Shown here in pieces: positions 2,459 to 41,976 of a stretch of 41,976 bases of DNA (the first letter of the stretch is position 1; each line of letters begins with the position of its first letter). The stretch is taken from IMG/VR virus record IMGVR_UViG_3300020421_000048, positions 1 through 41,976 of that record; one strand, 5' to 3'. The translations under genes were made by a program, and so were the position numbers. The notes under the pieces are model-generated. The model was not told the origin of the DNA, searched no databases, and saw only the letters and a list, made by a program, of their open reading frames with translations. This stretch comes from a virus.

Positions 2459-2810
2459 CACGTCCTGGTTTCTCCGAAAACATTGTTTCATATTTGTTTG
2501 GTACATTATTGTTTTTTTCTGCTTCTTCTGGTGTAGGTTTGTCATCATGTATGGCTGTTACTACAGGCCAAAGTCCATCAGAGTACTTCGTATTAATGTT
2601 CATCCATTTTTCTAATTCTGTTCCGGCTAGTGTATGATCAGCAACTATAGCATCTGCAGGACATTCTGGCTCACAAACACCGCAATCTATACATTCGTCT
2701 GGATTAATAACTAAAAAATTTTCTCCTTCATAAAAACAGTCTACAGGACAAACTTCAACACAGTCCATGTGTTTACAACCAATGCAGTTGTCAGTTACTA
2801 GATACGTCAT
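2451..2810 (-). CDS. FdxA-type 7Fe ferredoxin
   Basis: This is a 119-aa electron-transfer protein. Nine cysteines (C9, C12, C17, C21, C25, C40, C43, C46, C50) follow the spacing of bacterial 7Fe ferredoxins of the FdxA/Azotobacter FdI type, which bind one 3Fe-4S and one 4Fe-4S cluster. The region after residue 60 is the acidic C-terminal extension seen in this family. Possible redox partners in the window are the Rieske-type oxygenase near 40 kb and host enzymes; that is inference. The IscA-like gene at 27566 could help build the clusters. ATG 2810 has a GAGGG site close upstream. It lies 8 nt from the clamp-loader gene. Confidence 0.92.
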
Positions 2811-2818
2811 CCCTCTAT

Positions 2819-3733
2819 TTATAGTCTCGCAAGTCTAATGAGCGTTGCCGCCAAGTTAATCTCCGGGTCACTTACAAGCGTATGATCAACTAATCCTTGT
2901 TTAATAGTTAATACTGCTGTATCTTGTTTCTCTTCGTCTCCAAATAATTCAATGTTATCATATAGCCAACGATATATTTCTTCCATTTCCTCTGGTCGAA
3001 CTGCACCACATAAAAGTTTACGTGCTTGTTGAATTTTGCCTGCCTTAAATAATTCAACCATTTCAAGTTTCCAGTCTGCTTCTCCTGTGTCGCCTTCATT
3101 AGGCTTTAGCAAACTGTTGTCTTGTACATTCATTTGTACTGTGTTAATACATTTACGTAAGTCTGGATACGTTGCTTTTACATACGTGTCAAGTGTATCC
3201 AAGTCTGGCGTTACACCTTCTGTAATAAGAATCTCTGCTACGCGAGCAGTAAACTCTGTTTGATCTATTTTAGCAATGTGAAAGCCTTGACAACGACTGT
3301 GCAAAGCAGGGATAATACGGTTGGGGTAATTACAAGTAAGAATAAACCTTGCAGTGGTGTGATACTCTTCCATAACTCCACGTAGTGCCGCTTGAGCGTT
3401 CGGACTAAGATAATCGGCCTCATCAAGTAATACAACTTTAAAATCTCCAAAAGGTATCATTTGTACAAAGTTAACGATCTTATCTCTAACATCATCAACA
3501 CTATTTGTTCTACTTGCGTTAATTTCAAGTATATCTAAATCATTTATTTCAAGTTCGTTAAACAATAGTTTTGCAAGTGTAGTTTTACCAATACCTGCAT
3601 TACCGCTAAACAATAAATGTGGAATAGTTTTTTCTTTAATCCAATTCTTTACTTGTGAACGTTGTGCTTCGTCACGAAAGACATAGCCATCAACAGTTTT
3701 TGGACGATATTTTTCTACCCAAAGATCTCTCAT
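2819..3733 (-). CDS. Clamp loader large subunit (T4 gp44-like AAA+ ATPase)
   Basis: This 304-aa AAA+ ATPase loads the sliding clamp on primer-template DNA. It shows the gp44/RFC-small N-terminus ([14 protein letters not shown]), Walker A GNAGIGKT (residues 44-51), Walker B VVLLDEAD (100-107) and the SRC arginine-finger motif (146-148). I place the start at ATG 3733 because [12 protein letters not shown] is the family N-terminus and a GGAG site lies 10 nt upstream. An in-frame extension further upstream would run through the small gene at 3730-3894. The ATG overlaps that gene's TGA (ATGA). Expression is probably early, from the promoter at 3916-3944. Confidence 0.95.
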
Positions 3734-3894
3734 TTCTTTTTGTTCTCCATACCCATTCCTACTAAAATTAAAAAGATGTACAGTATAGGCCATGCCCATC
3801 CTGTTAAGTAGTTTGTAATATGAAGAATCATAAGTGCTATTCCAGCCGCACCTGCTGTACCAATACCAGTGTTTTTTTGTTCAGGTAATTTCAT
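3730..3894 (-). CDS. Small membrane protein, 54 aa
   Basis: This short gene begins at ATG 3894 with a good site (TAGGAGTAGAAC before ATG) and ends in TGA overlapping the clamp-loader ATG. The product starts MKLPEQKNTGIGTAGAAGIA, has a hydrophobic segment IALMILHITNYL and a second one WPILYIFLILVGMG, and ends in a basic ENKKK tail. It is therefore a probable two-span inner-membrane protein. It is the first gene after a strong early promoter. Function is unknown; small early membrane proteins in T4-like phages often affect host physiology, which is only a general parallel. Confidence 0.75.
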   Translation of the reverse strand: MKLPEQKNTGIGTAGAAGIALMILHITNYLTGWAWPILYIFLILVGMGMENKKK

Positions 3895-3915
3895 GTTCTA
3901 CTCCTAATATACTTT

Positions 3916-3944
3916 ATTATATAGGATACTAACAAGAAAGTCAA
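3916..3944 (-). promoter_or_regulatory. Strong sigma70-type early promoter
   Basis: On the minus strand, TTGACT (3944-3939), a 17-nt spacer and TATAAT (3921-3916). It overlaps the last codons of the upstream 52-aa gene and directs the small membrane protein, clamp loader, ferredoxin and thyX group. The -10 hexamer and the spacing match consensus and the -35 differs at one base. Confidence 0.8.
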
Positions 3945-6295: not shown

Positions 6296-6860
6296 CTTTG
6301 TACTCTCCGTAAACTGTTTGCCCGCCGTCGATTGTCCAGAATCTATAGATATATGGATGTATACTGTCGTCAATAGTTGCTGGATGTGCAAAGCCTGTTG
6401 CTACCTTGATTGAACCACTATTTGCTGTAGAAAATGTTACAGTGTCTGCTTGCCCACGTCCGCGTAGTTCTAACCATACTTCGGCATACTTACCACTTGC
6501 TGGCCAATCTGCAAGTTCTAATGTAATACCTGTACTATTAATTGTATAAGAATGATATGTTGCTATTTCAAAACTTACTGGTCTAACACCTGCACTACTT
6601 AATACACCACCGCTGTAAAACTTGCTTGTACCTCTAAGAAATGTTACATTCTTAATAGTGTTTCCTTGCATGTCAGTTTCAGCATCATTATTCTTTACTG
6701 AGTTTGTATCTAATGCTGTTAAGTCAGCATGGGTGTTTGTTAGTTCTGCTTTGATTTTAGTGAAATTATCTCTAAAACCTTGCGAGTCATTATCTTGTCC
6801 TGCAACAGGATAATCTGCATTAATTGTTCCAATATTAGAACTGCTTGTTGTAATGGCCAT
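6273..6860 (-). CDS. Virion structural/fibre protein, 195 aa
   Basis: The N-terminus (INADYPVAGQDNDSQGFRDN followed by FTKIKAEL) is a variant of the anchor motif shared by the fibre genes downstream and upstream: a short beta segment, a G/N/D-rich turn, then an amphipathic FRDNFxKI helix. The rest is beta-rich with no enzymatic motif. It is probably a short fibre or tail-associated protein. ATG 6860 is preceded by TAGGAGAATAAG, and a GATAAATA box at 6879-6886 fits late expression. Confidence 0.75.
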   Translation of the reverse strand: MAITTSSSNIGTINADYPVAGQDNDSQGFRDNFTKIKAELTNTHADLTALDTNSVKNNDAETDMQGNTIKNVTFLRGTSKFYSGGVLSSAGVRPVSFEIATYHSYTINSTGITLELADWPASGKYAEVWLELRGRGQADTVTFSTANSGSIKVATGFAHPATIDDSIHPYIYRFWTIDGGQTVYGEYKGEFDTVL

Positions 6861-28459: not shown

Positions 28460-28714
28460 TCAACGTAATGCTTGTTTAGCCTTTAAAGCGGCTCTTTTCT
28501 TTTCAGTTTCAATTGCTTGTCTTACTTTCCGTCCCCAAGGTAGTTTTATTTTATCTACTATTTCTTTGCCTTTTTTACTAATGTATTCTACACTAATAAA
28601 TTGGTCTTTAAAGTCACCTTGTACAGATTTAACTGCTCTATGTAGACTCAATTGTTCTGTATCTTTTTCATCACCCTTTTCATTCCAGAAATGGAACTTT
28701 CTCATTTTTGGCAT
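28460..28714 (-). CDS. Small basic protein, 84 aa
   Basis: GGAGG 5 nt before ATG 28714 supports this start, which overlaps the end of the UV endonuclease gene by 35 nt. The protein has many Lys/Arg residues, a KFHFWNEKGDEKDTEQLSLH segment and a C-terminal helix (RQAIETEKKRAALKAKQALR). It has no recognised domain. Its basic composition would allow nucleic acid binding, but nothing proves it. An AATAAATA element at 28732-28739 upstream could be a weak late promoter. Confidence 0.65.
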   Translation of the reverse strand: MPKMRKFHFWNEKGDEKDTEQLSLHRAVKSVQGDFKDQFISVEYISKKGKEIVDKIKLPWGRKVRQAIETEKKRAALKAKQALR

Positions 28715-29753
28715 AAGCCTCCGTTGTTATATATTTATTGTATTGATCTAACAGTTCTATGCTTGCTAAATTTTTCATCTTACTCTCACACATAATATCT
28801 GCATATTGTAAGAACGAAAGAGCATACGCATTTACTTTCTCATTAGGATAGTAATCACTATGGGCTCGTAGTTTTGCTTTCTTGTAGCCTGCTTCGAGTA
28901 GTGCTGGCATATCAGGCATAGTATCGTGTGTAAAGTCTGCAGGTAAATGTTCGTCTCTACTGTAGGAGTAATGTATAACTGGACGTACACCACGCCATGA
29001 ATCTATTACGCGAGAAAATCTATCGTCGGTGGGACGTATATACTCACCTTCACGGCACCAGTGATGGTGTATGTCGAGAACCAATGCGCAGGTGTCGACA
29101 AGTTCGAGACTGTGTTCGAGACCCCATTTGTTCTCGTCGTTTTCGATCGTAATTGTGTTTCTCGCCTCCGGAGATAGTCTTGTGTCAACTGCGTGTTTAA
29201 TACCGGCTGGACCTTGACGACCGGAGATGTGGACGTTGCATTTAAAGTCTTGGAACGATTGGCCATAGCCCATCCATCTGATGCAATCAACATGATATTC
29301 AAACTCCTCTATAGATCTTTCGACAATGTCTGGATTGTCGCTTGCAAGTACAGTAAATTGGCCTGGGTGCATCGAAAGTCGGACATTGAGGGCTCTTGCC
29401 GTGTCGCCGACTTTTGCGAACTCTCTTTCGCAGTAAATTCTAACGTCTGGCTTGCGCCAAAAATAAGACCAAGTAGGCTCGGTATACACAGGAAGTACAT
29501 CACTACCCAGTCTGACCATTCTAAGTTCGTTTGGAAGACTTCCAACATATCTAATCAATCTCATGTATGACGCTATGTTATGGACCATGATGTCCCATAA
29601 GCGTTGCTCTGCTACCTCAACAGTTTGTCTATTGAGCCATTGTACTGTTGTACTACGGGTATTTAGTGGCCGTTGTACTTCTTCTAATAATTTTTTCTTT
29701 TGTGTTTGGTCTGGATGCATGTACTTGCAAGCGAAACCTATACGTTTAGTCAT
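28680..29753 (-). CDS. uvsE: UV damage endonuclease UvdE/UvsE
   Basis: UvdE nicks DNA 5' of UV photoproducts, independent of light and of UvrABC. The TIM-barrel motifs are present: SMHPGQF (127-133), HISGRQG (175-181), TIENDE (202-207) and LDIHHHW (226-232). These supply the metal-binding His, Glu and Asp residues. Length (357 aa) is close to the family norm. This would protect phage DNA in sunlit water. The central part (about 29000-29560) is clearly richer in G and C (TCGAG, GTCG and CCGG words) than neighbouring genes, suggesting more recent transfer. ATG 29753 overlaps the DHODH-like gene by 8 nt. Confidence 0.93.
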   Translation of the reverse strand: MTKRIGFACKYMHPDQTQKKKLLEEVQRPLNTRSTTVQWLNRQTVEVAEQRLWDIMVHNIASYMRLIRYVGSLPNELRMVRLGSDVLPVYTEPTWSYFWRKPDVRIYCEREFAKVGDTARALNVRLSMHPGQFTVLASDNPDIVERSIEEFEYHVDCIRWMGYGQSFQDFKCNVHISGRQGPAGIKHAVDTRLSPEARNTITIENDENKWGLEHSLELVDTCALVLDIHHHWCREGEYIRPTDDRFSRVIDSWRGVRPVIHYSYSRDEHLPADFTHDTMPDMPALLEAGYKKAKLRAHSDYYPNEKVNAYALSFLQYADIMCESKMKNLASIELLDQYNKYITTEAYAKNEKVPFLE

Positions 29754-30456
29754 TAATAATACCTTTAATTTTCCACGGAGTAAAACCTACACTACCTAGA
29801 CTTATATGATCTGCTCCTGCGTCTAAATAATTTTTTGCATCTTGTTTAGAATACACACCGCCTCCTGCAATAACTGTAACATGTGAATGTTTGTTTTTTA
29901 TATAATCAATTAATTTCATAGTGTATGGTATAATAATTTTACCTGATAGTCCGCCTTTGTTAGTTGGTAAAGTATTACTAGCATGTATACAATTATACCC
30001 GAGATTTACTAATTTGTCAACCATATTATTATCCGCAATAGGAGGAATCTTTACAATAGTAAATTTACCACGCATATGATTTGGAAATGCATCAAATTTA
30101 GGCCAATTCATTGTATCATTACATGCATCTATGTTTGGACAACTTATATTAAGTTCTATATTCCTTTCAGGACCAATAGCCATTAATATCTTTTCCCAGT
30201 CGCTAGGTTCTAATGCCGCAACACTTAAAACTTCATCATATGATGTTTTGAACATTCCGTCAAACAATCCAGGATTGCGTAAACCTAATTGATTACGCCA
30301 AGACCAACCTGCTTCTGTTTTTACATACCTTAATGTTTTTAGTATTTGTTTTAAGCGTCCTGGCCTTGGATGAACTGTAAATGTTCCAGTTACACTAATT
30401 GCATTTTTAAATTTTAGATAGTTTCCGAATGGTGCGGATATAAAATATTTTGTCAT
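29746..30456 (-). CDS. Short dihydroorotate dehydrogenase-like flavoprotein, 236 aa
   Basis: The family core is visible: LGLRNPG (57-63), ELNISCPN (101-108), K136 in the TIVKIPP strand, NTLPTNKGGLSG (161-172), IAGGGVYS (196-203) and GADHISLGS (214-222). These match the FMN- and substrate-binding strands of DHODH TIM barrels. The protein is about 70-100 residues shorter than bacterial DHODHs, so parts of the N-terminus and substrate lid are missing. It may act on dihydroorotate, dihydrouridine or another substrate. It begins the unit of oxygenase, glycosyltransferase and pterin-type genes that lies upstream. ATG 30456 overlaps the previous stop as ATGA. Confidence 0.8.
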   Translation of the reverse strand: MTKYFISAPFGNYLKFKNAISVTGTFTVHPRPGRLKQILKTLRYVKTEAGWSWRNQLGLRNPGLFDGMFKTSYDEVLSVAALEPSDWEKILMAIGPERNIELNISCPNIDACNDTMNWPKFDAFPNHMRGKFTIVKIPPIADNNMVDKLVNLGYNCIHASNTLPTNKGGLSGKIIIPYTMKLIDYIKNKHSHVTVIAGGGVYSKQDAKNYLDAGADHISLGSVGFTPWKIKGIIND

Positions 30457-31043
30457 TTTATATAGTTCGTGTTAAAACTAATTGTTACTCTATTGTCAGT
30501 AGTATTATCATCTGTATAATGTTCTAACCAACTAGGAAAAAGAACAAGCGTTCCTTGCTCACAAGGTGTTTCCATCATAGCCGCATTATAAAATGTTTCT
30601 TGTGCAGTATATTCAAACATCTTATATACTTGCAATGGACTTTTAAATACTAAAGGTGTACTACCTTTATCTGCTATTGGATAAAAAGCACCACTTAGCA
30701 CACTAACTTCGTGTCTGTGAGCCTTTACTGCACCACCTTTGCCTACTCTATTCATCCAACTGTTACCAATAGTTAATTTAGGCAGACCATATTCTAAACA
30801 ATAATCTTGTACACAGTCTTGTAAAGTTTGTTTAAACTCTACTAATCCTAATTTATCTAACCATCTGTTTCCTGTACTTTCGTCATATGTACTTTCTGCA
30901 TCTTTCATTATAGCATGCCAACTTGTTTTTGTTTTGTTTACAACATCAAGCATTCTACTATAGTGTGGATGTTTACTTAGATCAAATCTCATAATTGTTG
31001 TAGGAAAAATTTGTTCAATACTATGAGGATAATGTTCACGCAT
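30453..31043 (-). CDS. 2OG-Fe(II) oxygenase-like protein A, 196 aa
   Basis: I place the start at ATG 31043 (MREHYPHSIEQIFPTTIMRF), which overlaps the preceding gene by 8 nt, the operon's usual arrangement. It resembles the TIGR02466-type putative 2OG oxygenases: a His motif (AHRHEVSVLSGAFYP, H109 and H111), a G(T)LVLFPSWLEH segment with H175, and R185 followed by TISFN, which would bind 2-oxoglutarate. The substrate is unknown; nucleotides, lipids or peptides are possible. It is a paralogue of the gene just upstream. Confidence 0.8.
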   Translation of the reverse strand: MREHYPHSIEQIFPTTIMRFDLSKHPHYSRMLDVVNKTKTSWHAIMKDAESTYDESTGNRWLDKLGLVEFKQTLQDCVQDYCLEYGLPKLTIGNSWMNRVGKGGAVKAHRHEVSVLSGAFYPIADKGSTPLVFKSPLQVYKMFEYTAQETFYNAAMMETPCEQGTLVLFPSWLEHYTDDNTTDNRVTISFNTNYIK

Positions 31044-31659
31044 TGTCTTGTCTCTGATATATAGGATATGCTGTATTAAAACTAATTGTTGTTCTGTTAT
31101 CACAGTCAATAGTAGGAACAAAATGTTCCATCCAACTCGGATACAGTAATAAATCTCCAGTTTCAACTTCTTCTAAATGTGCATATGTTGTGCTAGGGTT
31201 TGTAGCATTTTGCCTTTCCATCATTCTATAAGGAATAGTAGGATTAGCAAATGCAAGTCCATGACTGCCTTCTGGTGCGTTTACATAAAGTGTCCCGCTC
31301 CATACACTATTTTCATGTCTATGCCTTTGTATTCTACTACCTTTGTGCATAATAGTATACCAACTGTCGTCTATAATAACATTTTCAATACTATTAACAA
31401 AACAAAAGTTTGTAGTACATGATAAAAGTAAAGACTTTAAATCAGGAAATTGATCTAATACAAAACTACGTTTATCCCAATCTTCAATAAAACTAGTTTG
31501 TCCAGGTCCTTCTAGTATAGACTTTTCTGTTTGTTCTGCATCAAGAAGCAAATTCATAACATTATCCCAATGGTCATAATGATCAAATAATTTAAACTTC
31601 ATAATGTTAGTAGGAAATAATCCTGTAACTTTTGCTCCTGTAAATATTCCGCCTGCCAT
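31036..31659 (-). CDS. 2OG-Fe(II) oxygenase-like protein B, 207 aa
   Basis: ATG 31659 (MAGGIFTGAKVTGLFPTNIM) overlaps the stop of the glycosyltransferase gene (TAATG). It shows the same order of motifs as protein A: RHRHENSVWSGTLYV (H113, H115), LLYPSWMEHFVP (H179), then R189 with TISFNTAYP. The N-terminal LFPTNIMKF matches the IFPTTIMRF of protein A, so the pair arose by tandem duplication and has since diverged considerably. Different substrates, or a heterodimer, are possible. Confidence 0.8.
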   Translation of the reverse strand: MAGGIFTGAKVTGLFPTNIMKFKLFDHYDHWDNVMNLLLDAEQTEKSILEGPGQTSFIEDWDKRSFVLDQFPDLKSLLLSCTTNFCFVNSIENVIIDDSWYTIMHKGSRIQRHRHENSVWSGTLYVNAPEGSHGLAFANPTIPYRMMERQNATNPSTTYAHLEEVETGDLLLYPSWMEHFVPTIDCDNRTTISFNTAYPIYQRQDNA

Positions 31660-32609
31660 TAGTACCAATTCTCCTTACACCACGGGTCTACACAATTATG
31701 CGGATTAGGTTCACCGTGGAATACTGCTATACTTGTATCTGGCGCAATCTCAGGTACTCCTGGTGTAGCAAAATTTCTTACTCCGTCTAATCGTGTCATT
31801 GTTGGTTTGTTTCTCATTTCCCATTTGTAACTTTGTAACCATTCATCTGGCCAAAATACATAATTGTCCTTAACTTGATCATATAACCAATCTTGGTCTC
31901 CGTGAAACTTTCTACTATTTACAACTGGATTACGCATAAAGTTATGATATACATAATCATGTTGTCCTATTTCTAATCTAAAACAACTGCTGTTAAATTT
32001 ATTCCATGCCGGATTGTTTTTTCTATTGAAGTCTCTTATTACACAAAATTTACCTGGCTGGTATGTAAACAACTTATCAATGTTTCTAAATATAATTACA
32101 TCTAAGTCTATAAACAATACTGTTCCTTGTATTACAAGATCAGGATTGAAGAACATAGGCTTGTACCACCAACCTTGTAAACCTACGTGTTGCGGTAAAG
32201 GCTCTACTCGAATGTCTTTATCTAAGTCTGTTGGATTTTCTGTAAAGCAAACAAATTCAAAAGGTAGTGTCATATTTCTTTTACACATGTTAAACAATGT
32301 GTTTACATAAAGTCCATCATATTTGTTACCATGTTTCAAACAAGCAATATACCTTTTCGCTTGTGGTTCAAAACCTTTGCTCCATCTGTCAGGGTCACCT
32401 AAATCAGTCTTATCTGCAATAGGTGGAATAACTTTAGGTTCCGGCTGTATTAGAGGAGGCTTTGGTGTAGGTGGCGGAGACTTTTTAGGCTCTCGCACTG
32501 TTGTTGTCTTAGGGAAAGGCATCTTAACTTTTTTGCCTGTAGCCTTTTCTGCGAGTTTACGTGCTTTACGTTGCTCTTTAGACTCTCCTGGATAATACTT
32601 TTTAACCAA
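31659..32609 (-). CDS. Glycosyltransferase-like protein with Pro/Lys-rich N-terminus, TTG start
   Basis: Residues 84-250 resemble a GT-A/GT8-like nucleotide-sugar transferase: a KRYIACLKHGNKYDGLYVNT start, FVCFTENP, WWYKPMFF and a DxD motif (FIDLDVIIFRN, D168 and D170) that would hold the metal and sugar nucleotide. The first 80 residues are basic then proline-rich and probably disordered. The best start is TTG 32609, 2 nt after the queD-like stop, with GAGG 8 nt upstream. ATG 32522 would also keep the domain. It may glycosylate virion proteins or modified bases. Confidence 0.75.
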   Translation of the reverse strand: MVKKYYPGESKEQRKARKLAEKATGKKVKMPFPKTTTVREPKKSPPPTPKPPLIQPEPKVIPPIADKTDLGDPDRWSKGFEPQAKRYIACLKHGNKYDGLYVNTLFNMCKRNMTLPFEFVCFTENPTDLDKDIRVEPLPQHVGLQGWWYKPMFFNPDLVIQGTVLFIDLDVIIFRNIDKLFTYQPGKFCVIRDFNRKNNPAWNKFNSSCFRLEIGQHDYVYHNFMRNPVVNSRKFHGDQDWLYDQVKDNYVFWPDEWLQSYKWEMRNKPTMTRLDGVRNFATPGVPEIAPDTSIAVFHGEPNPHNCVDPWCKENWY

Positions 32610-32611
32610 TG

Positions 32612-33058
32612 TTATGCCTCATAGATTGCACTGTTTGCGCCGTGCTCAGAACATTCTACTTTTACAACATAACAACGATTATTTGTTTTCTCACGAATCA
32701 TATCGTTTGCAAAGTTAAATGCATGTTCTGCAAATTTCTCTGCACCTACGCCATCAAACTCTCTAACTTCGCATAAGTCTTTGTCTTGTAAATCATAAAA
32801 GTCTTGCTTGTGTGGATCGTTAACGTCTACACATGTTTTGTGATCGAAACTATCTTCAAGCCAAGCCTTCAAAGGTTTTAGTCCTCCGAAGTCAACTGCC
32901 CAGTTTTTATTATCTAAATCAATACATCCAAATGTAAATTTAAATGCTAGGCTGTAACCATGTAGTAAATGACAATGCGAATGATCCGCATTGGGTTGAC
33001 GGAACACCGCTGATAGTCCGATGTTGTGTCCGTATGTTTTAGTGCTATAATAAGCCAT
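32612..33058 (-). CDS. QueD/6-pyruvoyltetrahydropterin synthase-like protein with altered zinc site
   Basis: The T-fold family pattern is present: HSHCHLLHGY (C29 in the place of the catalytic cysteine), AVDFGGLK (54-61), FDHKTC and the terminal E-H-G-A segment (SEHGANSAIYEA). The canonical CxxxHGH reads C29-HLLHGY, so the last zinc histidine is Tyr35, and the FSAAH histidine before it is also missing. Nearby H26, H28 and H30 might compensate. Marine T4-like phages often carry such QueD-like genes, linked to queuosine or deazaguanine synthesis. Here no QueC or QueE is seen. A GGAG site precedes ATG 33058. Confidence 0.8.
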   Translation of the reverse strand: MAYYSTKTYGHNIGLSAVFRQPNADHSHCHLLHGYSLAFKFTFGCIDLDNKNWAVDFGGLKPLKAWLEDSFDHKTCVDVNDPHKQDFYDLQDKDLCEVREFDGVGAEKFAEHAFNFANDMIREKTNNRCYVVKVECSEHGANSAIYEA

Positions 33059-38619: not shown

Positions 38620-38696
38620 TGGCGGACCCGAAGAGATTCGAACTCCTGACCTCCGGTTCCGCAAACCGGCGTTCTATCCTGCTGAACTACGGGTCC
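38620..38696 (-). tRNA. tRNA-Arg(GCG), CCA encoded
   Basis: Acceptor arms GGACCCG and CGGGTCC, anticodon stem CCGGT/ACCGG with loop TTGCGGA, T-arm with TTCGAAT, discriminator G and encoded CCA. Anticodon GCG reads CGC and CGU directly; most bacteria use ACG (inosine) for these codons, so this is a less common choice. Confidence 0.92.
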
Positions 38697-38700
38697 GTGT

Positions 38701-38789
38701 ATAATAAGGGCCGACACTTGGTACGCAACTGTTCGGTGTCTGGTTTAATGCAACGTTGCCTAGGACTAACCATTCACAACCCTTATTAT
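38701..38789 (-). ncRNA. Candidate structured RNA, about 89-93 nt, between tRNA-Cys and tRNA-Arg
   Basis: A perfect 10-bp stem, ATAATAAGGG (38789-38780) with CCCTTATTAT (38710-38701), closes a 69-nt interior. Inside lie a GCAACGTTGC palindrome, GACAC...GTGTC arms and a possible long-range GCAAC/GTTGC pairing. A consensus promoter (38796-38824) places the start at about 38789, the first base of the closing stem. The 3' end would be made by RNase P processing of tRNA-Arg, 4 nt away. No ORF of note is present. Function is unknown. Confidence 0.6.
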
Positions 38790-38795
38790 CTTTAC

Positions 38796-38824
38796 AGTAT
38801 ATAATAGTTTATGAACTTTGTCAA
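38796..38824 (-). promoter_or_regulatory. Promoter TTGACA-17-TATACT for the ncRNA/tRNA-Arg unit
   Basis: On the minus strand, TTGACA (38824-38819), 17 nt, then TATACT (38801-38796). It begins 7 nt after tRNA-Cys. The region from the -10 box onward (TATACTGTAAAGA, then AATAA) is nearly identical to that of the promoter at 39295-39323. Confidence 0.75.
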
Positions 38825-38830
38825 GTGTTT

Positions 38831-38904
38831 TGGACACCTAGGCCGGATTCGAACCGGCATACACGGAGTTGCAGTCCGTTGCATAGCCATTCTGCCACTA
38901 GGTG
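38831..38904 (-). tRNA. tRNA-Cys(GCA), CCA encoded
   Basis: Acceptor CACCTAG with CTAGGTG, anticodon stem ACGGA/TCCGT, loop CTGCAAC giving GCA, T-arm GCCGG TTCGAAT CCGGC, discriminator U as expected for Cys. CCA is encoded. It is 1 nt from tRNA-Pro. Confidence 0.95.
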
Positions 38905-38905
38905 T

Positions 38906-38983
38906 TGGTCGGGGATGCAAGATTCGAACTTGCGATCTTCTGCTCCCAAAGCAGACGGATTAACCAGACTTTCCTAATCCCCG
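38906..38983 (-). tRNA. tRNA-Pro(TGG), CCA encoded
   Basis: Acceptor CGGGGAT with ATCCCCG, anticodon stem TCTGC/GCAGA, loop TTTGGGA giving TGG, T-arm GCAAG TTCGAAT CTTGC, discriminator A and encoded CCA. The D-arm is somewhat irregular (GGA paired with TCC). It would read CCA and wobble codons. Confidence 0.93.
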
Positions 38984-38985
38984 TT

Positions 38986-39060
38986 TGGTGCGCCCGGAGA
39001 GATTCGAACTCCCGACTGATCCGTTATGAGCGGACGGTTCTACCACTGAACTACAAGCGC
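38986..39060 (-). tRNA. tRNA with anticodon CAT (elongator Met or lysidine-type Ile2), CCA encoded
   Basis: Acceptor GCGCTTG with CGGGCGC (two G-U pairs), anticodon loop CTCATAA, T-loop TTCGAAT, discriminator A. The CAT anticodon fits elongator Met or Ile2 (decoding AUA after lysidine modification); the sequence alone does not decide. Initiator features are absent. Confidence 0.88.
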
Positions 39061-39064
39061 AATT

Positions 39065-39138
39065 TGGCATAGGTGAAGGGAATCGAACCCCTATCTTCAG
39101 TTTTGGAGACTGACGTGTTACCATTACACCACACCCAT
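39065..39138 (-). tRNA. tRNA-Trp(CCA), CCA encoded
   Basis: Acceptor ATGGGTG with CACCTAT, anticodon stem TCAGT/ACTGA, loop CTCCAAA giving CCA, T-loop TTCGATT, discriminator G as expected for Trp. It begins directly after the T-run of the terminator at 39139-39175, so it may depend on readthrough. Confidence 0.93.
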
Positions 39139-40084: not shown

Positions 40085-41146
40085 CTATTTTACCAAATAC
40101 GGATCAACATCTAAATACTTTCCCCATTCACTGTAGTAATGACGCATACCAACTTCATCGTGTATGGTTCCGTTTTCGTGTCTACCGTGCAATATGTTAC
40201 GTGCTTCTGTGCCTTCTCGCATTGTTGTACCTTGTCCGGCTACGCCTATCAGGTCTTCATGTAGGTTGCGTCCAAACGGTCCCCATATACTATTGTGATG
40301 ATTGATGCGTGTGCGTCTTTCTTCTAGTGTGTCTTTGCGTAGTCCATAGCCTCTAAATTCTATAAGCACTTTGTTACACCCTAATGGAGTAACACTATCT
40401 GAACGATAAGCACTACCACGTAGGTTGAAGTTGAAGCCTGGAAACAAGTCTACCATATACCATTGGTTGGGAGGTAGATTAGGAAAGGACAGTTCGCCTC
40501 TATCTTCAAAGCCTTCATACTCTTCGTAGTTTACAGTGAATGAACTTACATTTACATGTCCGTTGTCAAAAGGTATGTTCTTTCGTGCAAAATATTCATC
40601 ATTGAATCCGCTTACACGATTGAAGTAGTGCATGAAGTCATGATAGAATTCGCTGTTGGTATCATGCCACAGTTTGTAGTTTGTATCTATAACTGCTTTG
40701 TGGTAATGAAACACTTCCATTTCCTCTGTGTCAATAGCATCTTCAATACAATCAAATGCACCTGCGGTCCATTCTTCTACACTTTGCGTTGGATTAGGAT
40801 CAAGTGTTACCCATACCATACCTCCGTGCTTTACTTCACAATGTAACTTTGTGCCTTCATACGGACAACTTAATGTTCCGCTAGGTTGATTAATATTAGG
40901 ATTGCTATTTAAAAATGCCCTAACACCTGTACCTGTATTATATGCAATTACATTTATACCTGCTATTTGTGTTGTTCTAAAGTTACCAAGTTCATACATT
41001 TCACTTATATGACACATAGGAACCCATACCTTCTTAAAGATCTGTTCTTGTTCTTGTGCAAATATTTCTGGGCTGTTGTAGGCTGTGCTACTAATTGATT
41101 CTACGTTTGGTTGTGCTAACCAATTCTTATGATTACGTGGTGGCAT
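40085..41146 (-). CDS. Rieske-type oxygenase alpha-subunit homologue lacking cluster ligands, 353 aa
   Basis: ATG 41146 (MPPRNHKNWLAQPN) is preceded by AAGGAG. The N-terminal half follows the Rieske domain of ring-hydroxylating oxygenases (KKVWVPMCHISEMYELGNFR, then GVRAFLNSNPN and SCPYEGTKLHCE). The canonical ligands CxH and CxxH read N82-P-N84 and C94-PY-E97, so three of four [2Fe-2S] ligands are replaced. The catalytic domain retains NYKLWHDTNSEFYHDFMHYF with H169 and H173, and a later D298 (HEDLIGVAGQ), so mononuclear iron could still bind. Without the cluster, electrons must come another way, or the role is not oxygenation. The gene has its own putative promoter. Confidence 0.8.
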   Translation of the reverse strand: MPPRNHKNWLAQPNVESISSTAYNSPEIFAQEQEQIFKKVWVPMCHISEMYELGNFRTTQIAGINVIAYNTGTGVRAFLNSNPNINQPSGTLSCPYEGTKLHCEVKHGGMVWVTLDPNPTQSVEEWTAGAFDCIEDAIDTEEMEVFHYHKAVIDTNYKLWHDTNSEFYHDFMHYFNRVSGFNDEYFARKNIPFDNGHVNVSSFTVNYEEYEGFEDRGELSFPNLPPNQWYMVDLFPGFNFNLRGSAYRSDSVTPLGCNKVLIEFRGYGLRKDTLEERRTRINHHNSIWGPFGRNLHEDLIGVAGQGTTMREGTEARNILHGRHENGTIHDEVGMRHYYSEWGKYLDVDPYLVK

Positions 41147-41173
41147 AGTTTCTCCTTGCATGTTATTTAATAT

Positions 41174-41202
41174 ATAATAACACACAAAGAGGGCTATGTC
41201 TA
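41174..41202 (-). promoter_or_regulatory. Probable promoter TAGACA-17-TATTAT
   Basis: On the minus strand, TAGACA (41202-41197), 17 nt, TATTAT (41179-41174), 28 nt before ATG 41146. It lies between the unusual tRNA and the oxygenase gene. Confidence 0.55.
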
Positions 41203-41228: not shown

Positions 41229-41329
41229 TGGCTCTGGGGGAAGGACTCGAACCTCCACGATAAATAATTTGCAGTATATCTATCACTCAATAAACAGTTG
41301 AGCGTGTCTACCAATTTCACCACCCCAGA
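41229..41329 (-). tRNA. Chimeric class II tRNA with anticodon GTT (Asn), CCA encoded
   Basis: The cloverleaf is complete: acceptor TCTGGGG with CCCCAGA, discriminator G, CCA, T-arm GGAGG TTCGAGT CCTTC, anticodon stem CTCAA/TTGAG with loop CTGTTTA. U1-A72, G73 and anticodon GTT are all features of bacterial tRNA-Asn, and the loop differs from the usual CTGTTAA only by T at position 37. The D-arm (GTGAAATTGGTAGACAC) is tRNA-Leu-like, and the variable arm is 29 nt with an 8-bp stem (GATAGATA with TATTTATC), as in class II Leu/Ser tRNAs. It lies 8 nt downstream of the AsnRS/AspRS-like gene. Identity is therefore uncertain; Asn is favoured. Confidence 0.82.
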
Positions 41330-41337
41330 TTATATTC

Positions 41338-41976
41338 TTATATCTTGCCGATTTTTTCTAGTGCAGGAATCATACGTGTAACACCTATGCCTCCACCAAC
41401 TCTTTGAAAGAAATCAAATTCTAAAAACTTTTCTAGTTCCGCTTCAACTCTATCTTTGCCGAATAGTTCGAACAGTAGTTTTGAGTAAGCACCGTCTGTA
41501 ATACTATGAAATGTATCTCTCATCATGTCAACATCACATGAACGTTCTGCTGATCCAATAGTTTCCATCCCACCTAGTATAACGTCCATCTTCTTTGCTG
41601 TATTTCCGTCATCATTTCTAGCCATATTCCAAAAAGGACTAGTCATTTCAGGGAAGTTAGTAATAAGTGTTTGTCCAAACTCTTTTTCCATTGCTAGTTC
41701 GTGTTTTGCATCCATTTCAACATCTACAGGCAAGTCAAAATGTGCTTGCCAATCACTATATGTCTTTTCTGTAATTTTACCAAAGCCCAAGTATTCACAT
41801 AGTTCATACTCCATTGCTTTGAGATCATCTACACTACCTGGCATTTCGAATTCGAACATTGGAAATATTATATCGTGTCTACCTGGTATTGCGTTTGGTT
41901 CTTGTCTGTAGGAAGTGGAGACACAAAAAAACCCCTTACTATCGGGGCTACTTAAAAGTTCGTGTTCCAGCCACAT
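41338..41976 (-). CDS. AsnRS/AspRS-like class II synthetase (or AsnA-type paralogue), N-terminus beyond window
   Basis: The 212 visible residues carry class II core motifs: motif 2 (SYRQEP, R24, then GRHDIIFPMFEFE), the amino-acid pocket-like MDVILGGMETIGSAERSCD, and motif 3 (RVGGGIGVTR, R201). Their order matches AsnRS and AspRS (FRxE...EFE; GSxRe; GxGxGxxR). Motif 1 and any anticodon-binding domain would lie upstream, outside the window, so the ATG at the edge is not reliable as a start. Known relatives without an anticodon domain act as asparagine synthetases in archaea. The Asn-type tRNA 8 nt downstream makes a synthetase/tRNA pair possible. A terminator-like hairpin lies within the coding sequence at 41925-41949. 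Confidence 0.8.
   Translation of the reverse strand: MWLEHELLSSPDSKGFFCVSTSYRQEPNAIPGRHDIIFPMFEFEMPGSVDDLKAMEYELCEYLGFGKITEKTYSDWQAHFDLPVDVEMDAKHELAMEKEFGQTLITNFPEMTSPFWNMARNDDGNTAKKMDVILGGMETIGSAERSCDVDMMRDTFHSITDGAYSKLLFELFGKDRVEAELEKFLEFDFFQRVGGGIGVTRMIPALEKIGKI

Follow-up and report, generated by a model that had tools for sequence, protein, structure and literature searches.

An AsnRS-like enzyme and a class II tRNA gene with a GUU anticodon, which lie side by side at one end of a marine viral DNA stretch of 41,976 nucleotides (IMG/VR record IMGVR_UViG_3300020421_000048, the whole of which is referred to below as the window), appear to belong to pyrimidine synthesis and not to protein synthesis. 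The pyrimidine link of the pair is strongly supported; on balance we favour the view that the enzyme forms dihydroorotate, and it is suggested, more tentatively, that the phage tRNA is its amino-acid donor.

The tRNA and enzyme genes of the window

The tRNA gene was located on the minus strand at positions 41232-41329 (41229-41329 including the encoded CCA, read directly at 41229-41231), as supported by Rfam, a covariance model, folding and covariation. The Rfam tRNA model matched 41232-41329(-) with 45.8 bits against a gathering threshold of 29, and our own covariance model returned 100 bits, the window sequence being among those used to build that model. Direct reading gives the acceptor UCUGGGG/CCCCAGA with U1-A72 and discriminator G73, a D-arm of the Leu type, a variable region of 29 nt with an 8-bp stem, and the anticodon loop CUGUUUA (anticodon GUU) with U37, while the MFE fold is a class II cloverleaf. 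The complete class II tRNA of the preliminary description, with its GUU anticodon, U1-A72, G73, Leu-type D-arm and 29-nt variable arm, is confirmed by these results; its description of tRNA and enzyme stands, whereas U37 and the dihydroorotate dehydrogenase of the same window were missing from it. ARAGORN made no call for this gene and gives many related tRNAs the wrong type (Glu, Asp, Gly or Stop), so that the tRNA family is probably often mis-annotated.

Elsewhere in the window, five ordinary tRNAs (Trp, Met, Pro, Cys and Arg), all class I, are clustered at 38620-39138(-). The class II tRNA is followed at 40085-41185(-) by a gene for a Rieske-type ring-hydroxylating alpha subunit (PF00848, weak match), the start of which is likewise found behind the tRNA in L001, L037 and other contigs.

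The enzyme gene, at 41338-41976(-), lies 8 nt upstream of the tRNA and has its 5' end past the window edge, such that the window holds the C-terminal 212 residues of an AsnRS-like, core-only class II enzyme, as identified by a Pfam match (PF00152, 37.9 bits), by a full-length relative in L001 (98% identity) and by an AF2 model (pLDDT 93.7) whose top PDB matches are AsnRS and AspRS. Full-length relatives are ~276 aa long, start with MTQLI and consist of the catalytic core alone, without the N-terminal OB anticodon-binding domain. The class II fold is common to the enzyme and AsnRS (PDB 1x54, TMq 0.79) and the catalytic motifs align. A set of 69 phage and cellular proteins has 54 invariant positions in common, including E68, R88, E90, E202, R209 and R265; in a profile alignment with AsnRS, E68 corresponds to the Glu of SGQLxxE and R88 and E90 to the RxE of motif 2, while E202 and R209 fall on GExIGGSQR and R265 on motif 3. 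E68 and R209 are presumably the residues that grip the asparagine side chain. In contrast to AsnRS, which has the OB anticodon domain and the usual Glu of motif 3, the enzyme lacks this domain, carries Thr264 at the position of that Glu, has a conserved RLSILAACEDP loop and pyrimidine gene neighbours, and scores far under the AsnRS cut-off (TIGR00457, 33 bits versus 342.6).

All NCBIfam matches of the enzyme are far below their cut-offs, and the family corresponds to PHROG 29758, annotated as 'unknown function'. An asparagine synthetase paralogue with no tRNA dependence had been raised in the preliminary description as a competing identity. One related to AS-AR, the AsnRS paralogue of archaea, and without connection to the linked tRNA would be of similar size, and the enzyme weakly matches PRK06462 (asparagine synthetase A, the AS-AR model; 19 bits versus a cut-off of 389). 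AsnRS models score higher (33 bits), however, the neighbouring genes are those for PyrF, OPRT and PyrD while CarB, PyrB and PyrC are missing (see below), and the tRNA would be left unexplained, all of which renders this identity highly improbable. A defence-system reading of the pair was rejected, PADLOC having given no match for it, and no plasmid relatives of the enzyme were found. Cellular homologues are present at roughly 50-60% identity; in a quick tree, the enzymes from pyrimidine operons are scattered over the family and the tRNA-linked ones occur in at least two separate places.

Linkage and anticodon loop of the tRNA family

Using a tRNA finder, a class II GUU tRNA was detected no more than 300 nt downstream of the enzyme in 70/77 and 64/73 enzyme-seeded contigs, and a covariance model together with sequence reading recovered five and nine more, bringing the counts to 75/77 and 73/73, with a gap between the two genes of mostly 4-12 nt. 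A stronger test of linkage is provided by seeding with the tRNA: a tRNA-only pattern returned 77 new contigs, of which 71 carry the enzyme directly upstream and four slightly further away, while the remaining two stop within 80 nt of the match, so that the enzyme is present in 75/75 testable contigs. The pair is found in well over a hundred contigs, and a further seven loci (L168-L172, L174 and L175), with enzymes ~50% identical, have the tRNA ~10-1050 nt away. The earlier suggestion that tRNA and class II enzyme form a functional pair is upheld by these three counts; the pair recurs in viral contigs, and in none of the testable tRNA-seeded contigs was the tRNA found unlinked from the enzyme.

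The pair is also present in the isolates P-SSM7 and P-SSM2, 8-10 nt apart, where it is annotated as 'tRNA ligase' (cyanophage T4-GC 194, of the same family as the enzyme and with the same linked tRNA) and tRNA-Asn, contrary to the initial supposition that no such pair was known in marine T4-like phages. The passages located in the P-SSM2/P-SSM7 paper contain no discussion of the enzyme-tRNA pair or of a pyrimidine link, and the published table gives P-SSM2 one tRNA. In the P-SSM2 record AY939844.2 (L083 8633-8718 against 6622-6707) the tRNA-Asn is placed inside a coding sequence ~2 kb off, the true tRNA being located 10 nt past the enzyme gene, where Rfam matches.

The tRNA is absent near the enzyme in a few phages, namely L039 and L050 (both short contigs) and L166, and no linked tRNA was found near the enzyme gene of the huge phages L084 and L085; the best matches examined in LR756501 are tRNA-Leu, and those examined in LR756508 are ordinary tRNAs. 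A structured stretch of ~85 nt upstream of the enzyme (L084 ~3600-3690, L166 ~3850-3940) has a tRNA-like look and was rejected as a tRNA, giving no cloverleaf fold; it is conserved in these two phages, both without a linked tRNA, and is possibly a regulatory RNA. tmRNA genes adjoin the enzyme in viral contigs L033 (3426-3727), L065, L066, L069 and L080, that of L033 being a permuted alphaproteobacterial tmRNA according to Rfam. Among cellular genomes, one linked tRNA was found, in the Methylophilaceae bin L131; besides this, a pattern search for the class II GUU tRNA elsewhere in these genomes gave weak matches only, and the best covariance-model matches examined are tRNA-Leu.

The linked tRNA family is real, far beyond chance: 98.5% of helix cells are paired in 30 representatives versus 71.9% in shuffles, with compensatory double changes in 22 of the 24 helix pairs. 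All 85 unique tRNAs of the finder set have anticodon GUU and G73, and 83 have U1-A72. Canonical bacterial tRNA-Asn shares these three marks, yet it is class I with a short variable loop, whereas the linked tRNA is class II with a longer variable region (13-38 nt). Exceptions to the shared marks are the linked tRNA of L174 (5314-5461), which has anticodon GUC and reaches 148 nt because its variable arm is greatly extended by an insert, and those of L168, L169, L171 and L175, whose A1-U72 would not suit GatCAB. G73 speaks against recognition by LeuRS. Together, GUU, G73 and U1-A72 form a set that would be read by AsnRS, or by a non-discriminating AspRS plus GatCAB, U1-A72 being a determinant for amidation (PMC9976931). 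The T-stem is bulged by one additional base on its 5' strand in the linked tRNAs of L044, L058 and L062-L064.

The anticodon loop, by contrast, departs from that of a canonical elongator tRNA, which has U33 and a purine at position 37. Of the 85 unique linked tRNAs, 74 have U at position 37, 10 have A and one has C (i.e., a pyrimidine in 75), as against a purine in 29/29 other unique phage tRNAs at the same loci (Fisher p ~6e-19, the sequences not being independent), and several related tRNAs carry C33 (loop CCGUUUA). Pyrimidine 37 and C33 are very rare in elongator tRNAs. These features bear on the initial proposal of an orthogonal charging pair, in which the enzyme acts as an AsnRS and the tRNA decodes AAC/AAU codons, a proposal consistent with the AsnRS-type catalytic pocket, the invariance of GUU and G73 in the finder set, the tight linkage and the well-formed tRNA. 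It is weakened by the preponderance of U37, by C33 in some tRNAs and one GUC anticodon, by an enzyme that has no anticodon-binding domain, by close homologues in cellular pyrimidine operons without the tRNA, by the position of the tRNA between enzyme and PyrF-PyrD in L470 (see below), and by the presence of AsnRS already in 8/25 enzyme-bearing cellular genomes; a decoding role for the pair is thus considered unlikely. The same 8/25 genomes, in which AsnRS is full, led us to reject substitution for a missing AsnRS as the general reason for the enzyme, and codon compensation is judged an unlikely purpose of the linked tRNA.

Pyrimidine genes around the enzyme in cells and viruses

In cells, the enzyme is found among genes for pyrimidine synthesis. 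For example, the Midichloriaceae bins L118, L119 and L126 have, in order, enzyme, PyrF, OPRT-like PRTase, PyrD and PRPP synthetase, and Rhodospirillaceae L095 has enzyme, PyrF, PRTase and PyrD; the complete genome of Pasteurella atlantica possesses enzyme, PyrF and PRTase, with PyrD nearby on the opposite strand, while in L145 and L146 a PyrE-PyrF fusion precedes PyrD. The PyrF proteins of L117 and of the viral L470 exceed the TIGR01740 cut-off.

The enzyme would occupy the same pathway slot as the CarAB/PyrB/PyrC route, before PyrD, OPRT and PyrF; CarB, PyrB and PyrC are unrelated to it and mostly absent where it is present. Among 28 enzyme-bearing genomes, many of which are incomplete MAGs, matches over cut-off were obtained for CarB in 2, PyrB in 3, PyrC (TIGR00857) in 1 and DHODH in 19, as opposed to CarB, PyrB and DHODH in 14/14 and PyrC by the same model in 11/14 control genomes; matches below cut-off may be kin, i.e., ornithine carbamoyltransferase, biotin carboxylase and dihydropyrimidinase. 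The missing-gene pattern agrees in the complete P. atlantica chromosome and in single contigs of 0.8-1.5 Mb (L102, L106), and G007, G017 and G018 carry the enzyme alongside PyrB or PyrC. Loss of CarAB/PyrB/PyrC could also signal uracil auxotrophy.

Pyrimidine genes also accompany the pair in viruses with the tRNA. The window encodes a dihydroorotate dehydrogenase (PyrD) at 29746-30456(-) (PF01180, 58.7 bits; 43% identical to PyrD of L094), on the same strand as the pair and ~11 kb downstream, which belongs to the divergent subfamily that goes with the enzyme in pyrimidine operons of cells and viruses; the layout of pair and PyrD is the same in L448. In L470, one strand carries ThyX (654-1355), the enzyme (1393-2229), the tRNA (2399-2481), PyrF (2508-3116) and PyrD (3086-3769). 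The gene order in L087 is PyrD, enzyme and tRNA, in L094 the enzyme and tRNA are followed by PyrD 0.9 kb on, and L330, a 198-kb phage, has the pair, an OPRT-like PRTase and PyrD within ~10 kb.

A P-SSM7-type OPRT (TIGR00336, over cut-off) was found in only 15 of 50,697 phage records, and the named isolates with a close OPRT match, P-SSM2, P-SSM5 and P-SSM7, are the same ones that have the enzyme. Among viral loci of at least 15 kb, the enzyme is present in 12/32 seeded with OPRT-like genes (p = 3e-6) and in 3/18 seeded with DHODH (p = 0.017), versus 0/49 clamp-loader-seeded controls, with related sequences treated as independent in these p values. In large phage contigs with the pair, PyrD is present in 1/38, PyrF in 0/38 and PRTases, several of which are not OPRT, in 23/38, while OPRT is the sole pathway gene of P-SSM2 and P-SSM7; the pair-bearing phages being mostly without PyrD and PyrF, the host would need to finish the pathway. 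No pyrimidine genes were found on the 35-108 kb contigs from the wider L168-L175 group.

The PyrD gene of the window stands in a row at 28680-33058(-) that comprises UvdE, PyrD, two 2OG-Fe(II) oxygenases, a protein resembling glycosyltransferases and a QueD-like 6-pyruvoyl-tetrahydropterin synthase. Genes resembling those for QueE and GTP cyclohydrolase are present in the related phage L330, and deazaguanine DNA modification may be involved.

A proposed route to dihydroorotate

The module as a whole can be read, plausibly and still tentatively, as an AsnRS-like enzyme that yields dihydroorotate, with the tRNA as a dedicated, probably non-decoding asparagine carrier. The substrates are probably asparagine plus bicarbonate, asparagine being suggested by the AsnRS-type pocket and by the fact that it already contains the whole dihydroorotate ring apart from the C2 carbonyl. 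In a first step, this pocket would bind asparagine and the enzyme would spend ATP to form dihydroorotate, with N1, C6, C5, C4 and N3 of the ring supplied by asparagine and the C2 carbonyl by bicarbonate: carboxylation of the amine would give a carbamate which, once adenylated, would cyclise through the side-chain amide, at the expense of one ATP, and the enzyme would thereby replace CarAB, PyrB and PyrC. Such carbamate and adenylate chemistry has a parallel in the opening half of t6A synthesis, in which TsaC/Sua5 (threonylcarbamoyl-AMP synthase) converts an amino acid, bicarbonate and ATP to a carbamoyl-adenylate, the product of which modifies A37 of tRNA; TsaC/Sua5 is a chemical precedent whose fold is unrelated to that of the enzyme, for which ring closure is proposed. 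In a second step, for which the gene content is shown, PyrD, OPRT and PyrF of phage or host would take dihydroorotate to UMP.

In a third step, the phage tRNA would carry asparagine for the enzyme. The host would charge it by way of GUU, G73 and, mostly, U1-A72, using AsnRS or ND-AspRS plus GatCAB; its use by the ribosome would be prevented by U37 or C33, and its class II structure would allow the phage enzyme to distinguish it from host tRNA-Asn and to remove its asparagine. Such a carrier role would account for the retention of the marks for host charging, the loss of those for the ribosome, and a tRNA that never occurs apart from the enzyme, and the GUC tRNA of L174 fits charging by AspRS. 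Cells with the enzyme would draw on free asparagine or their own tRNA-Asn, and as cellular enzymes, if active, would work without such a tRNA, a requirement for it is no more than possible. The complete proposal, i.e., a tRNA-dependent, one-step formation of dihydroorotate from tRNA-carried asparagine that bypasses three enzymes, with some cells using the enzyme alone, is possible and is put forward with some doubt.

Alternatively, the enzyme may make dihydroorotate or a precursor from free asparagine or aspartate without the tRNA, which would have another job, such as aiding asparagine supply, sensing charging or regulating the enzyme. This is in agreement with cellular operons that carry the enzyme without any class II GUU tRNA and with the few phages that have none near the enzyme (L039, L050 and L166); the tRNA, however, is always found with the enzyme in testable contigs and lies inside the pyrimidine operon of L470, so that its job should tie to that of the enzyme, and we regard the tRNA-free alternative as somewhat unlikely. 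It is also conceivable that charging of the tRNA, with asparagine or some other amino acid, is done by the enzyme itself, the aminoacyl-tRNA being an activated biosynthetic intermediate, as would be compatible with the core-only class II fold, the retained ATP-binding arginines and a tRNA that is likely non-decoding. This leaves the invariant GUU without explanation, as the enzyme has no domain with which to read an anticodon, and the tRNA is absent from cells; self-charging is therefore considered very unlikely.

The proposed asparagine carrier has a counterpart in Staphylococcus aureus, where a non-proteinogenic tRNA-Gly feeds peptidoglycan synthesis and evades EF-Tu by T-arm changes (PMC9976931). 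The likeness lies in a tRNA apparently reserved for delivering an amino acid to biosynthesis, whereas the phage tRNA is odd in its anticodon loop (U37, C33) and class II body and stands beside pyrimidine genes. Neither a role for this enzyme family in pyrimidine synthesis nor the pair is described in the full texts covered, which include few subscription papers or bioRxiv preprints.

De novo pyrimidine synthesis is taught with a single route to dihydroorotate. If the present proposal is true, the enzyme family would represent a second route, sited exactly where three enzymes are missing, and a widespread one, as its members range from symbionts and candidate-phylum bacteria to a Pasteurella and many marine phages. 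Furthermore, if the phage tRNA feeds the enzyme, this would place a tRNA in the service of nucleotide synthesis, for which the literature covered offers no example. This reading would give a concrete function to PHROG 29758 and to the tRNA gene of long-studied cyanophages.
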